Below are positions 5,306-64,000 of a stretch of 64,000 nt of DNA, piece after piece (position 1 is the first letter of the stretch; each line of letters starts with the position of its first letter). The translations under genes and the position numbers were made by a program. This DNA is from Antedon mediterranea (lineage: Eukaryota > Echinodermata > Crinoidea > Comatulida > Antedonidae), in NCBI RefSeq assembly GCF_964355755.1, contig NC_092670.1:16491201-16555200 (forward strand), given 5' to 3'. The notes beneath the pieces were generated by a model. The model searched no databases. It worked only from the letters and a program-made list of their open reading frames with translations, and was not told the origin of the DNA.

Positions 5306-8300
5306 CTATAAACAAAACAAAAACACATTGTATGCATCAAGTAGAATAAGTCTGTATCTTGCAAAAGCTTGACACGCTCATTCAAACTTTCACTATCATA
5401 GTGCTGTACCTTGCAGCAGCAATGGCACGTTCATTGAAACTTTCATTATTGTAGTGCTGTACATTGCAGCAAGTATGGCACACTCATTCAAACTTCCATT
5501 ATTGTAGTGCTATACACAGTACCTTGCATCAGCTATGGCACACTCATTCAAACTTCCATTATTGTAGTGCTATACACAGTACCTTGCATCAGCTATGGCA
5601 CGCTCATTCAAACTTCCATTATTGTAGTGCTGTACACAGTACCTTGCATCAGCTATGGCACGCTCATTCAAACTTTCAGCAGCTATGGCACACTCATTCA
5701 AACTTTCATTTTTGTAGTGTTGTCCATACCTTGCAGCAGCTATGGCACGCTCATTCACAGTTTTAGTATTGTAGTACTGTACCTTGCAGCAGCTATGGCA
5801 TGCTCATTCAAACTTTCAGTATTCTATCATCTTTTGAAATTCCAGACAGGCACTTTATAAGGAATCACATAGTCCCTCATGTCTGTGGTTGTACCAGGGA
5901 GTTGTAGAATAAACAACTCCCTGGTTGTACTATATTAACTTGTACTTACTAATTTCACAATTATCCCCTGTAAAGCCAGATGAACATATACAGTTGTAAC
6001 TATTTAACAGGTCCAAACAAAATCCATTATTTTGACATGGGTTACTAGCACATTCATTGACCTCTGAAAAGAAAAGGATTGGTTATACAATATAATATCC
6101 AAAGGAACTCATTTTTATGAGGGTGTCATGAACATGTCTCCTGTCTATCTCTATTATAGGTATATTATGCCAGGGCAATTGAAAATACATTCTTTACAAA
6201 TTTTTTCTGTATACTTAAATGCATATTGTTTGAAGGTTTGCATGGCAAAATCAATTCTCACCCATTATATATATAATGATCGGAACTTCAAGAAACTCAA
6301 CAAATTATTTCAGAACTAAATATGAAGTTATAAAACAAACTTGATACCAACATAAATGTATATTCAAATGTACTTTTATGCAAACAACTTACCTGATTCA
6401 CAATTTGTACCAAAGAATCCACTTAAACATGTACAGGTATACGATGCCAACCCATCTGTACAATCCCCTGCACCACACGGATCAGGGACACAGTCATCAA
6501 TATCTGAAATTGATACAGCACAATTGATCATTACATTTTAAATTCTTGTTATTACCTAAGTGTTGTCTATAAGCAGAACATATTGTAATGCTCTGTCTAC
6601 ACTATCAAACTTTATGTAACAAAATAAATGTGATGTGCCCATATATGGACATCACCACCATATTTGGGCACATCACATTTTTTTTAAAGAAGTGCACTGA
6701 AGGCCTTTAAAAAAAAAAAAGTGAGAAATGAACAGTGTAAAGCGTGTAAGCTAGAAGCCTCTTGTTCTAAGACATTCATACACGTATAGAGGTATGCATA
6801 AGTTATACCCACGTCTTTATGAAAAACGGCAATGTGTCAATATAAATGAATAAACAAATTAAGTCCATACCTTGATCGCAGATATCTCCTTCAAAGCCCT
6901 CTGTGCACTCACACCAGAAGGCTTCTGTATTTTCATCGCATCGAGCCCCATTCTGACATGGTTGAGATAAGCAAAGTGCAATTGCTATAGAGCAAAAGAT
7001 AAGTATATGGAAATTAAATGAATTAATCAAAATCATACATCTATCTAAAGCTAATTTAAATGCTTTGTCTGGTCTGGTCTAAATTAGTAAGTATATCTAA
7101 TAATAGATATAAAGAGTGAGTGTTCAATGGCGCTGTTTCATGTTCAGAATCACAGTAATTGTCTTAAAAATGTTTTTTTATGGGAAAAGAACTATTTAAC
7201 GATCGTTAAATGGTGTGTACTATTGCATGCCATGTGACCCACAATTGTCCAATGAAATGATAAGAATTTATTTAGGTGTTATATAATATTCATTATGAAA
7301 TCATAAAGACAATTTAAAAATGTTGGTTCTAAACACGATAAAGTGTAACAAGAATTACTAAACATTCTGATGGCATATTATAATACATTTTCAGAGAGTT
7401 GGTGATATAAGCAAATTCACCAATCGCACTTAAAAGTAAAGGATTTGTAGTATTCACTTAGATGTTATTTGTGAATACAGGCACAAGTACTTACCAGTTT
7501 GACATGATAAGCCTACAAACTCTGGAGGACAAGTACAAACATATTGACCAATTTGATCTTCACAAACACCTCCATTCAAACAGGGATCAGCTGCACATTC
7601 ATTTATGTCTGCAAATACATATCATTTAAATTAATGATTATACATATACATATTATCATACACATATAATGTTTATAGAGTTTTACCTAAATTACAATAG
7701 TAAAGTAGTAGTACATGTATGATCAATTACCATTCTTTCATAGAGAATTACTGTAGTAAATGAATTCATATAAGGTGAATTTTGGTACTACAATATTATG
7801 GGATAAGGGTGATTTGATATACAGTGGTGGATCCAGGATTTGAAATAGGATGGGAAGGGGTCCTTAACTTGGATTCGCCTATGGTATTAGTAGCTAATTT
7901 AAACATTCTATTCTCACCTAATACATTATATACAGTTTCCCTCTAAAAGTGAAAAACTTTTAGAAACTTTTAATCATACATATATTGTAACAAATTTGAT
8001 TTTAATATTGTACATTTATTTTTGTAATTCTTTATTTTATTTTGCTTGTATGTCTGGAGTTGGAGAGACAGGCCCTTTGGTGATAGTTGTCTTTGACAGC
8101 TCCTGTCTCTCCTCAGCGCTCCCTTTTTATGTTTCACTGAAAGGAATAAATCAAATAAACAAAACAAAAAGTACACTACCTATTTCACAATCTGAACCTT
8201 CAAATCCTGCTAAGCATTCACAGGTATATAGCGCCAAGCCATCAGTGCATTCACCGCCATTTTGACACGGATCATTTCTACAGTTGTTAGGGTCTGTTCA

Positions 8301-20124: not shown

Positions 20125-23100
20125 TCATATTAATGCACTTTCACTGTGTGCTTCTTGTGCTTCTTTGAAATATGATTCATCTTTTGACTCGATCCACATG
20201 GTCTTGGTGACCTCTGGGGTCATCCCTTTCCAGTCTTCTCCACGCTTGGCAATCTAAAAAATAAATATCAATAAAATATCTTTACTAAAAAAAGGTTAGC
20301 AAGAACAATAGTGAAATTATTAATATTTGTTAGAGATAAATATTATGTAATTTGATATATTTTTATTGACTGTATATTTGTTGCACATCTCATTGAGACG
20401 GTGTCTGATATAAAAGAGATACAATAATTAGTTTAGACAATGTTAAGGATAGGAGATGACAATGATGACAATAATAATGAGTTGAAGATAATAATGATGA
20501 GATGACGATAATAATGAGGTAAAGATAATAATGAGGTGAAAATGATAATAATGAGGTGAAAATGATAATGATGAGGTGAAGATAATAATAATGAGGTGAA
20601 AATGATAATAATGAGATGAAGATGATAATGATGAGGTGAAGATTGAGGTGAGGTGAAAATGATAATAATGAGATGAAGATGATAATGATGAGGTGAAGAT
20701 TGAGGTGAGGTGAAGATTGAGGTGAAGATAATAATGAGGTGAAAATGATAATAATTAGGTGAAGATGATAATGATGAGGTGAAGATTGAGGTGAGGTGAA
20801 AATGATAATAATGAGATGAAGATGATAATGATGAGGTGAAGATTGAGGTGAGGTGAACATTGAGGTGAAGATAATAATGAGGTGAAAATGATAATGATGA
20901 GGTGAAGATAATAATAATTAGGTGAAGATGATAATGATGAGGTGAAGATAATAATTAGGTGAAGATGATAATGATGAGGTGAAAAATGATAATAATGAGA
21001 TGAAGATGATAATGATGAGGTGAAGATAATAATTAGGTGAAGATGATAATGATGAGGTGAAGATAATAATAATGAGGTGAAAATGATAATAATGAGGTGA
21101 AAATGATAATAATGAGGTGAAGATGATAATGATGAGGTGAAGATAATAATAATGAGGTGAAGATAATAATGAGGTGAAAATGATAATAATGAGGTGAAAA
21201 TGATAATAATGAGGTAAAGATGATAATGATGAGGTGAAGATAATAATGATGAGGTGAAGATGATGATGATGAGGTGAAGATGATGATGATGAGGTGTAGA
21301 TGATGATGATGAGGTGAAGATTGAGGTGAGGTGAAGATTGAGGTGAAGATAATAATGAGGTGAAAATGATAATAATTAGGTGAAGATGATAATGATGAGG
21401 TGAAAATGATAATAATTAGGTGAAGATGATAATGATGAGGTGAAGATAATAATGAGGTGAAAATGATAATAATGAGGTGAAGATGATAATGATGAGGTGA
21501 AGATAATAATAATGAGGTGAAGATAATAATGAGGTGAAAATGATAATAATGAGGTAAAGATGATAATGATGAGGTGAAGATGATGATGATGAGGTGAAGA
21601 TTGAGGTGAGGTGAAGATTGAGGTGACGATAATAATGAGGTGAAAATGATAATAATTAGGTGAAGATGATAATGATGAGGTGAAAATGATAATAATGAGA
21701 TGAAGATGATAATAATGAGGTGAAAATGATAATAATGAGGTGAAGATGATAATGATGAGGTGAAGATGATGATGATGAGGTGAAGATTGAGGTGAAGATA
21801 ATAATGAGGTGAAAATGATAATAATGAGGTGAAAATGATAATAATGAGGTGAAGATGATGATGATGAGGTGAAGATTGAGGTGAGGTGAAGATTGAGGTG
21901 AAGATAATAATGAGGTGAAAATGATAATAATTAGGTGAAGATGATAATGATGAGGTGAAAATGATAATGAGATGAAGATGATAATAATGAGGTGAAAATG
22001 ATAATAATGAGGTGAAGATGATAATGATGAGGTGAAGATGATGATGATGAGGTGAAGAAAGATGATAATGATGAGTTGTAGAAAGATGATAATGATGAGG
22101 TGAAAATGATAATAATGAGGTGAAAATGATAAAGGTGAAGTTGAAAATGATGATGGTACCAAAAATAATTGAGAATATGATAATGATGATGATGAAAATC
22201 ACTTCTTACTTGATGGCATTCTTCATATTTTTTCATGGAGTTTGTTGCCCATCGGAGCAGCTCATTTCCATCTGGAGGCATTTTGATATCACTTTCTTTC
22301 TTGTTAAGAATAAACAGCACACGTGACAAGTCTCTTATGACATCCCTAATAGAAAAAAAAAATAGAAAATCAAATCAGGGAAGCTTGAATTATTTTCCAA
22401 ACTATTGTGGTACATTCTAAAAAGTTATACACAGTTCCCAACATGACAACAATTTAAATATTAGGATAATTTGTAAAAGCATAGCCAAACAAGAGAGGGT
22501 GCTGTAACAATTTGAAAAATACATCAAACATTATACTGTAGTACAGTAATAATAAATAAGCCACGAACTTTCAAGGCATGTTTAGAAACAACTAGTGTTT
22601 AGTTACAGAGCCAAAATAATACATTTATAAAGTAAAATTTCTCCTTCGAGGGAGCTGGGAAAAAGACTTAAAATATCAAGAACTTCGCACAATTATTCGG
22701 AAGCCATGGACTTACTTGAAAGTGTCGATCCTTGGATTACCATGCTTAGAATTATCTACTAAATGTTTGACCTCATTAGACATGGCAAGGAATGTTGTAG
22801 CTGATGGTTTTAGGGTTGTTATCTGTTGTAGAAACATGTCACGCTTCACTTTCTTCGGTGTCGTCAGATACAGAGACTCAATCTCACCATCTATATCATC
22901 GCTCTTCTGTGTAACATCCATATTCTCTTTTAAGCTACTCTTCTCCTGCACCGTTTCCTCTTGATCTTCTTCTTCTAAAAATATCATTTTATAATATTAA
23001 GAAACAAATTATTAACATTAAAACTTAAATACTTCAGTAAACCATTGCCTCAGTGAATAAACAAGAAAATAAATCTTAATATTAAAATGTATTTTATTGA

Positions 23101-33057: not shown

Positions 33058-53692
<20,635 letters not shown>

Positions 53693-60481: not shown

Positions 60482-60831
60482 ACAAAAACTAGTTAAAACA
60501 ATTTGACTAAGTTATTTAATTCCAACTTGCTTGTTGGATTGTACACGAACATAATTTATTTTAAAATAAAAACAACATAAATAAAAGAAGTGAATACTTG
60601 TCGTCAAATTAATATGAGCAATAACAATTATTTTTTTAATTTATCAATATTTTCAGCTTAAGAAGTAACAAAATATACATATTAGTGTATGACTGTGCTT
60701 CTCAAGTTTTTAATTATTCATCTCAATGTGAAGAATACAACACCATGTTATAAAAATCAATTAAAATTTACTGCATAATTCTAAAATCTATTACAAACAC
60801 TTATTTAACAAAATTACATGATTGATGATAG

Positions 60832-61855
60832 TACTGTATGTACTACTGTACTGTATGTACACAGTACTGTATGTACTACTGTACTGTACGGTACACAGTA
60901 CTGTATGTAGTACTGTACTGTATGGTACACAGTACTGTATGTACTACTGTACTGTATGGTACACAGTACTGTATGTACTACTGTATGGTACACAGTACTA
61001 TATGTACTACTGTACTGTATGGTACACAGTACTGTATGGTACACAGTACTGTATGTACTACTGTACTAGTACTGTATGTACTACTGTACTAGTACTGTAT
61101 GTACTACTGTACTAGTACTGTATGTACTACTGTACTGTATGGTACACAGTACTGTATGTACTACTGTACTGTATGGTACACAGTACTGTATGTACTACTG
61201 TACTAGTACTGTATGTACTACTGTACTGTATGGTACACAGTACTGTATGTACTACTGTACCAGTACTGTATGTACTACTGTACTGTATGGTAAACAGTAC
61301 TGTATGTACTACTGTACTGTATGTACTACTGTACTGTATGGTAAACAGTACTGTATGTACTACTGTACTGTATGTACACAGTACTGTATGTACTACTGTA
61401 CTGTATGGTAAACAGTACTGTATGTACTACTGTACTGTATGGTACACAGTACTGTATGTACTACAGTACTGTATGGTACACAGTACTGTATGTACTACTG
61501 TACTGTACGGTACACAGTACTGTATGTACTACTGTACTGTACGGTACACAGTACTGTATGTACTACTGTACTGTACGGTACACAGTACTGTATGTACTAC
61601 TGTACTGTACTGTACGGTACACAGTACTGTATGTACTACTGTACTGTATGTACTACTGTACTGTATGTACTACTGTACTAGTACTGTATGTACTACTGTA
61701 CTGTATGGTACACAGTACTGTATGTACTACTGTACTGTATGGTAAACAGTACTGTATGTACTACTGTACTGTATGGTACACAGTACTGTATGTACACAGT
61801 ACTGTATGTACTACTGTACTGTATGGTACACAGTACTGTATGTACACACTAATAG
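60832..61855. repeat. Minisatellite of GTACTGTATGTACTACTGTA units
   Basis: About 1 kb of units of 23-36 bp combine GTACTGTATG, TACTACTGTACT and GTACACA. Each unit is largely self-complementary (GTAC, TGTACA), so many hairpins are possible. Long frames rich in Tyr, Cys, Thr and Val in this segment are repeat products. It is in the spacer between LSM11 and H1. Confidence 0.95.
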
Positions 61856-62612: not shown

Positions 62613-63272
62613 TTATTTAGCTTTTTTAGGTTTAGGGCTAGCTTTAACCTTTAACGTAGCTTTGTTACTTGGTCTTGTCTTTTTTCTCTTCTTAGAACCA
62701 CTCTTCCTTGATTTTTTGCTTTTCCCCTTTTTGTCATTCTTTTTTGTACTGTTACTTCCCTTCTTTTTTGGGCTTAATCGTTTCTGCCGCGAGGTTGGTT
62801 TATATGAAGTTGTCGACGCATCTGGTTTTTTCCCAACTTTAAAGCGACCATGAGCTCCACCCGATTCATCACCTTTAGGTCTTACAAACACTCCAGTTTG
62901 GAGACCTTTAGTAAGCGCTGTTCGTACCATATAATTCACCATGTCTGGCCTAACAGTTTCGTATGTGGATAAAATGTACTTTTTTATAGCCATTCCTGAA
63001 CTGCCTTTACTTTCCTTTAAAGATTCAATTGCCTCTACACACATTAAAGTTGAGTTTGGATGAGTAGGCTTCCATTTTGCTTTCTTTTTCTTCTTTATTT
63101 CTGTAGTTTTAGTACTACGAGGTCTAGGCCTAGTATTCCTACCAGTTACTGCGCCTGCTTCCCCTTCTTCTCCAGGGTCCTCTTTTTGTGTCTCTTCGGC
63201 TGCAGCAGCATCGTCGACTGCCTCCACATTATCTTGCTTTATATTGTCCTCTTTCTGATCCCCGTCTGACAT
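62613..63272 (-). CDS. Linker histone H1
   Basis: A single intronless frame encodes 219 residues. The acidic N-tail (MSDGDQKEDN) is followed by a basic patch, then the winged-helix H1/H5 globular domain (about 70-147: HPNSTLMCVEAIESLKESKG, SSGMAIKKYIL, MVRTALTKGLQTGVFVRPKG, HGRFKVG), then a Lys/Ser/Pro-rich tail ending SPKPKKAK. It binds linker DNA at the nucleosome dyad. The frame opens 14 codons earlier at 63314, but MSDGDQ is chosen because H1 proteins usually start M-S/A. No canonical histone stem-loop is seen within 100 bases after the stop, so it may be a polyadenylated replacement or testis/oocyte H1. The acidic N-tail is longer than in somatic H1. Confidence 0.93.
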   Translation of the reverse strand: MSDGDQKEDNIKQDNVEAVDDAAAAEETQKEDPGEEGEAGAVTGRNTRPRPRSTKTTEIKKKKKAKWKPTHPNSTLMCVEAIESLKESKGSSGMAIKKYILSTYETVRPDMVNYMVRTALTKGLQTGVFVRPKGDESGGAHGRFKVGKKPDASTTSYKPTSRQKRLSPKKKGSNSTKKNDKKGKSKKSRKSGSKKRKKTRPSNKATLKVKASPKPKKAK

Positions 63273-64000
63273 TTTTAAATGATTATTAAATAATTTAAAA
63301 CGTGTACAAACCACAGGGAACGATATTTTTCTTAAATAAATATAAAATATCTCAAATTAAATTGTTTAATGCACAGCTTATTTCGACGTACCTCTACAGA
63401 AAAACTAAACAAAGACAGGTATAGGCCTAGTCGTTTGAGGGCGCACTGATCGATGCTACATTTTTTTTTCGTTTGGCGCCACCTAAAGTTTACTTTCGCT
63501 GAGTATCAAGATAGTGAACTGAGTACAATATTTGGTAATCTAGAACAAGTATACCCGTTTTTAAGGCCCATTTATACTAGGACGATAGACGATCGACGAT
63601 GAATAAAATAATAAACATATATTTTTCATCCTAGAACTATTATGATAAAATTATGCTGTATTTTTAACAAATAAAAATATTGTCCAGCGGTAGATTGTGC
63701 ACTAAAACAATCAGATATTTATCCAATCCAATAATTATCCAATCCGATATTTGTCTAGTTATGTTTTTAAAGAAAATGTTCAAATGGTTTTTCAAAGGAA
63801 CGTAACCATCAAATTCCCTTTATTACTAGTCAGGTTAAACCCATATAAAAATTCAAATGCAAGTTACTAAAAAAAATACAATTCTGTCAGTGACTAAAGG
63901 GATTTCAATGGAGATACAAAATAAGCAAAAAGCTAAAGTAAAACGATAAAGTAAAACCAGGGAGTTGAACAATTCCCTGGTAAAACAGCCAGAAAAAATT
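63273..64000. other. 5' flank of the H1 gene
   Basis: It should contain the H1 promoter. I see no clear H1-box or CCAAT/TATA arrangement at expected spacing. A possible repeat end (AAGGCCCATTTATACTAGGA) starts at 63563. The third ultra-short palindrome is at 63957. Confidence 0.45.
63957..63980. mobile_element. Ultra-short palindromic insertion, copy 3
   Basis: A 24-bp form has arms CCAGGGAGTTG / CAATTCCCTGG. It is flanked by TAAAA (63952-63956 and 63981-63985). Confidence 0.65.

Follow-up and report, generated by a model that had tools for sequence, protein, structure and literature searches.

Results

Palindromes in the Window

The window, meaning the whole stretch of 64,000 nucleotides analysed here (Antedon mediterranea, NC_092670.1, positions 16,491,201 to 16,555,200), contains open frames in which EGF-like, WW and histone H1-like sequences were recognised by eye. 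The frame similar to linker histone H1 lies at 62613-63356 on the minus strand, approximately 600 bp from the third of the palindromes described below. Two long imprecise tandem arrays are also present, one at 20471-22132 with a 20-bp unit of ATAATAATGAGGTGAAGATG and the other at 60831-61845 with a 17/34-bp unit of GTACTGTATGTACTACT.

A previous sequence-only reading of the window had pointed to three short palindromes, and these were confirmed at 5894-5924, 47914-47944/5 and 63957-63980. All of them (n = 3) have the form CAGGGAG...CTCCCTG. When the ends are set at these motifs, the palindromes and the target-site duplications (TSDs) that flank them are as follows, where no feature is assigned to a strand.

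5888..5894, no strand: left TSD copy of scar 1, GTTGTAC, 7 bp
5895..5923, no strand: putative excision scar 1, CAGGGAGTTGTAGAATAAACAACTCCCTG, 29 bp, with a 5-nt filler between 12 nt from each element end
5924..5930, no strand: right TSD copy of scar 1, GTTGTAC, 7 bp
47908..47914, no strand: left TSD copy of scar 2, ATTAAAC, 7 bp
47915..47945, no strand: putative excision scar 2, CAGGGAGTTGTTATCTAATAACAACTCCCTG, 31 bp
47946..47952, no strand: right TSD copy of scar 2, ATTAAAC, 7 bp
63951..63957, no strand: left TSD copy of scar 3, GTAAAAC, 7 bp
63958..63979, no strand: putative excision scar 3, CAGGGAGTTGAACAATTCCCTG, 22 bp, with one substitution in the right arm
63980..63986, no strand: right TSD copy of scar 3, GTAAAAC, 7 bp

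The junction of scar 2 consists of 14 nt of one end and 17-19 nt of the other, with a microhomology of 2 nt. An identical junction was found at C1:2816765-2816795, where the TSD is different (GTCAAAC).

Genome-Wide Distribution

The genome-wide search proposed in the sequence-only reading was carried out on the 354-Mb assembly, where the strict pattern gave 97 matches per strand and the reversed control gave 0. The looser pattern CAGGGAGTTGN{0,30}CTCCCTG gave 741 forward and 727 reverse matches in the same genome, and again 0 for the reversed control. These matches correspond to approximately 930-1,000 places, a number which was estimated from the fraction of listed places seen on one strand versus both strands and which includes some mutual copies carried within larger repeats. 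The absence of control matches against hundreds of matches to the pattern excludes a chance origin of the palindromes.

At G000:C3:297727-298577, a tandem array is composed of 45-61-bp units, each with a CAGGGAGTTGTAAAATAAGATTATCTTACAACTCC-like scar, so that a scar has become a small satellite there. Another palindrome, CTGAGACAACAAATAAATAGTTATTGTCTCAG, occurs together with a shorter form on many chromosomes; its interior is constant, unlike those of the scars, and it is probably carried in another repeat family.

Target-Site Duplications

The sequence-only reading had described perfect direct repeats of 5-6 bp, specific to each site. Their presence and site specificity held, whereas their length did not; the repeats are perfect over 7 bp (GTTGTAC, ATTAAAC and GTAAAAC), and the 5-6-bp repeats are the inner portion of these duplications. 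Perfect 7-bp repeats at the fetched loci and in the window comprise 35 distinct sequences with a consensus near GTTWAAC, a set in which a few entries either read a single site in a different way or come from copies inside an element.

An unselected sample was formed from 20 places at the top of the looser-pattern list, with the flanks ignored in choosing. The 7-bp flanks agreed at 6 or 7 positions at 12 of the 20 places, compared with 4 of 380 mismatched flank pairs. The remaining sites in this sample, approximately 40%, show no clear 7-bp TSD, which is attributed to decay, end loss or secondary rearrangement. A duplication of 8 bp, as is known for hAT or classical P elements, was mostly rejected, as the eighth position is not generally common to both flanks, although 8 bp would seem to fit a few of the repeat copies.

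Parent Elements of the CAGGGAG Family

A full transposon whose terminal inverted repeat (TIR) begins with the palindrome end, as the sequence-only reading had envisaged, is present in the same genome. The end sequence continues in some copies as the 28-bp TIR CAGGGAGTTGTTATTAGATGGAGTAACA. In intact copies, this TIR is identical at both ends and is flanked by perfect 7-bp TSDs, for example, ATCAAAC/ATCAAAC and ATCATAC/ATCATAC. The sizes of the intact elements range from 2.5 to 11.6 kb (2.5 kb for L066-L070, 4.0 kb for L071 and 11.6 kb for one copy, L072/L073), and the aligned 2.5-kb copies are approximately 97-98% identical to one another.

The 4.0-kb element L071 encodes a piece of a P-type transposase (TNP-like_RNaseH_C, PF21789, E = 1.7e-8). 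Only this RNase H C-terminal part of the transposase was found in the CAGGGAG family, in broken frames. An intact autonomous member of the family did not appear in the sequence read, which covered L066, L071 and a minor part of the 11.6-kb copy; L066, a 2.5-kb element, has no long frame, and the frames of L071 are broken. In the P-like elements of this genome, two genes converge, one for the transposase and the other a second open frame read from the other strand. Such a pair is seen at L033:1881-4265 (plus strand) and L033:4365-5336 (minus strand), and likewise in L071 and at other loci. The second frame of L033 encodes 323 aa with no Pfam match, and at several loci, relatives of the second frame of L071 adjoin PF21789 matches that lie on the other strand.

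Intact TIR ends number 18 genome-wide, because of which the ratio of scar places to intact elements is approximately 100:1, where all the subfamilies with the common outer 10 nt are set against the one subfamily with a known full TIR. Inside the 2.5-kb elements lie similar but older scars (L066 769-797 and L067 1579-1592, with the 7-bp TSDs GCCTAGC and GTCTGTG), whose number has since grown as the host element transposed. In the empty-site comparison among the fetched loci, no pair aligned across a scar except for loci fetched twice and the copies of the 2.5-kb element. L066 was considered as an empty site and rejected, as most of one internal scar had gone through deletion.

The TAAAATAAG subfamily also produced many scars, and its full-length parent was not found in the genome. 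An extension that recurs in this subfamily, ACAATATTTTTATTGT, has an outer flank common to the fetched copies and therefore goes back to a single event that was copied as part of a larger repeat.

Second P Family

A second family of P-like elements has the TIR CTGAGACAACAATCAAAGAGATTGG / CTGAGACAACAATCAAAGAGATTGGAAACGC and a 7-bp TSD, and three copies are 99.4-99.5% alike. It contains an open transposase frame of 794 aa (PF21787, E = 3e-26; PF21788, E = 6.5e-18), which matches the structure of the Drosophila P transposase (PDB 6p5a, E = 1.5e-14). The TNP-like RNase H with a GTP-binding insertion, which characterises P/THAP9-type transposases, is thus found in this family. It has also left short palindromic scars, such as CTGAGACAACAATCAATTGATTGTTGTCTCAG.

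L023-L025, the P-like elements that came to light first, were examined as the source of the palindromes and rejected, as their TIR is CTGAGACAAC... Since this TIR differs from the palindrome ends, these elements were used as an independent control family.

Retained TIR Length and Junctions

The retained length was determined for the listed copies in which 17 nt or more of the TIR remain, 100 in total, consisting of 16 intact ends and 84 non-intact copies. Among the 84 listed non-intact copies, 17 nt were kept in 17, 18 nt in 43 and 19 nt in 22; none kept 20-22 nt, and 2 kept 23 nt. A stop at 17-19 nt in 82 of the 84 listed copies has p ~1e-46 under evenly spread breakpoints. Some of the values of 18 and 19 may reflect chance agreement or microhomology, and the cut is therefore placed at 17-18 nt. 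In the second family, among the copies with at least 15 nt, the non-intact ends stop at 15-17 nt except for one diverged full end.

When both arms of 29 scars were measured, the kept length ranged from 6 nt to a maximum of 19 nt, and 18 nt was the most frequent value. The reference for the TAAAATAAG subfamily in this set is only 19 nt long and no parent TIR is known, so its upper limit of 18-19 nt is not an independent test.

The sequence-only reading had treated the palindrome as one shared insert of 24-32 bp. This description did not hold, as both the interiors and the lengths vary by site (14-63 bp), and the many copies of one unit expected of a MITE were not seen. The junctions comprise microhomologies of 1-2 nt, blunt joins and fillers of 1-23 nt, where the fillers are often built of local repeats, for example, ATAATAATAAT.

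Discussion

Excision Model

An excision footprint is recognised by a TSD on both sides, retention of no more than approximately 17 nt per end and variable end-joining junctions. All three were found here, with 7-bp flanks agreeing at six or more of seven positions at most of the unselected sites and with a retention limit of 17-19 nt (mode 18) in the CAGGGAG family and 17 nt in the second family. The source elements have a 7-bp TSD, in line with the 7 or 8 bp of the P superfamily, and, as in that superfamily, TIRs common to both ends. Each palindrome is thus very probably the donor-site footprint of an excised DNA transposon of the P superfamily (THAP9/P-transposase type).

In the proposed process, an element with the TIR CAGGGAGTTGTTATTAG|ATGGAGTAACA, or one of a close subfamily, would insert and duplicate the 7-bp target; this step is shown by the intact copies with perfect 7-bp TSDs. 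The transposase would then make a long staggered cut, in which one strand is cleaved at the element 3' ends and the opposite strand 17-18 nt within the TIR, and 17-18 nt of each TIR would be left as single-stranded chromosomal tails. The retention limit suggests this cut, in agreement with established P-element biochemistry, where the P transposase cuts at the element 3' ends and, on the opposite strand, 17 bp into the TIR (PMC7776569). Single-stranded TIR tails of 17 nt then remain on the donor chromosome. The tails would be rejoined by end joining through microhomology of 1-2 nt, blunt joins or short templated fillers. These junction classes are observed directly, and the probable involvement of polymerase theta is suggested by analogy with Drosophila. 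The product would be an inert scar, in which a part of the left TIR is followed by a part of the right TIR with a TSD copy on either side; its palindromic appearance stems from the inverted orientation of the two TIR copies. The varying interiors, the arms of 17-19 nt out of a 28-bp TIR and the microhomologies or fillers together form the signature of excision followed by end joining.

Comparison with Known P-Type Elements

Repair junctions of Drosophila P{wa} have an 8-bp TSD on either side; between the two copies, each end contributes no more than 17 nt, and the ends meet in a microhomology, a blunt join or a templated (T-nucleotide) filler (PMC2895639). The palindromes here are similar in the TSD on both sides, the limited retention of each TIR and the microhomology, blunt or templated-filler junctions, the last exemplified by TTATTATTATTA. 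However, the TSD here is 7 bp instead of 8, the TIR sequence is unrelated and retention stops at 17-18 nt (at most 19). The P{wa} footprints are laboratory events, whereas those here occupy approximately 1,000 natural genomic places.

Galileo, which belongs to the P superfamily, shares the 7-bp TSD and a preference for palindromic targets (GTAGTAC, compared with the GTTWAAC-like sequence here), but its TIRs are long and foldback, in contrast to the 28-bp TIR of the present elements (PMC2775673). In the passages on zebrafish Pdre2 / THAP9 (PMC10983969), a non-insect P-like element with TIRs and an active transposase relative is described, as in the present case. The TIR given there is 13 bp and the TSD 8 bp, compared with 28 bp and 7 bp here, and a genome-wide scar record was not found in those passages.

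Alternative Explanations

The sequence-only reading had interpreted the palindromes as a minimal mobile element made of two fused TIRs. The transposon ends and the TSDs of this interpretation are retained, whereas the mobility of the palindrome is not, as the interiors vary and the arms stop at 17-19 of 28 nt. For a palindrome of 24-32 bp that transposes whole and is mobilised in trans, one end sequence at hundreds of sites with TSDs would be expected and is indeed seen, and a few exact interiors, such as CAGGGAGTTGTTAACAACTCCCTG, do repeat. These repeated interiors are explained by a recurring microhomology (TA) or by duplicated flanks (L085/L087 and L086/L091), and the sharing of interiors is largely no more than these two causes predict. 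Some scars are just 14 bp long, and the arms end within the reach of a P-type cut. In addition, the P transposase requires internal binding sites (PMC7776569), which are absent from the palindromes. Independent transposition of the palindromes is consequently considered highly improbable.

Another alternative to full excision is shrinkage of P-like elements by interrupted gap repair, through synthesis-dependent strand annealing and end joining. Products of gap repair are common after Drosophila P excision (PMC2895639), and the two copies that keep 23 nt, as well as some fillers with repeated TIR stretches (L051 and L065), are of the type that such internal deletion could give. However, internal deletion would be expected to leave TIRs and interiors of varied length, in contrast to the stop at 17-19 nt in nearly all the listed copies. 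The second-family limit at 17 nt is likewise against it, and the sharp step at 17-18 nt fits the simple joining of cut tails, so that internal deletion is very unlikely to account for the palindromes. Conserved functional hairpins of non-transposon origin, for example, RNA or protein-binding palindromes, would agree with the near-perfect palindromes and their shared arms but are scarcely credible in view of the 7-bp TSDs, the unrelated flanks, the variable loops and the arms, which are identical to the ends of intact transposons.

Significance of the Scar Record

With excision followed by end joining as the preferred explanation, the scars are ordinary products of a mechanism that is already known, unusual in their number, and their record is unusually clean. 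The novelty lies in the families themselves and in how large the natural scar record of the germline is. Among the papers searched, which took in a minority of the subscription journals, none was found to describe P scars as a natural, genome-wide phenomenon.

No other feature of P-element chemistry is as unusual as the long staggered cut, which is established for the Drosophila enzyme. There is about an even chance that the scars constitute a usable fossil record of jumping, that the CAGGGAGTTGTAAAATAAG-end subfamily is apparently represented by scars only and that the cut at 17-18 nt is ancestral beyond flies. Because scars outnumber intact elements by approximately 100 to 1, a single genome could show directly how many excisions took place, how old they are and by which route they were repaired. 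The scar set supplies hundreds of natural germline end-joining junctions and lets transposon families known only by their scars be recognised. It also calls for caution in annotation, as a short palindrome with a TSD is not necessarily a MITE. The sharp limit at 17-18 nt, seen for two families in one animal genome, provides independent evidence for a cut common to the superfamily. If the reading as a fossil record is true, P-type transposases outside flies would share the 17-18-nt staggered cut as an ancestral trait.
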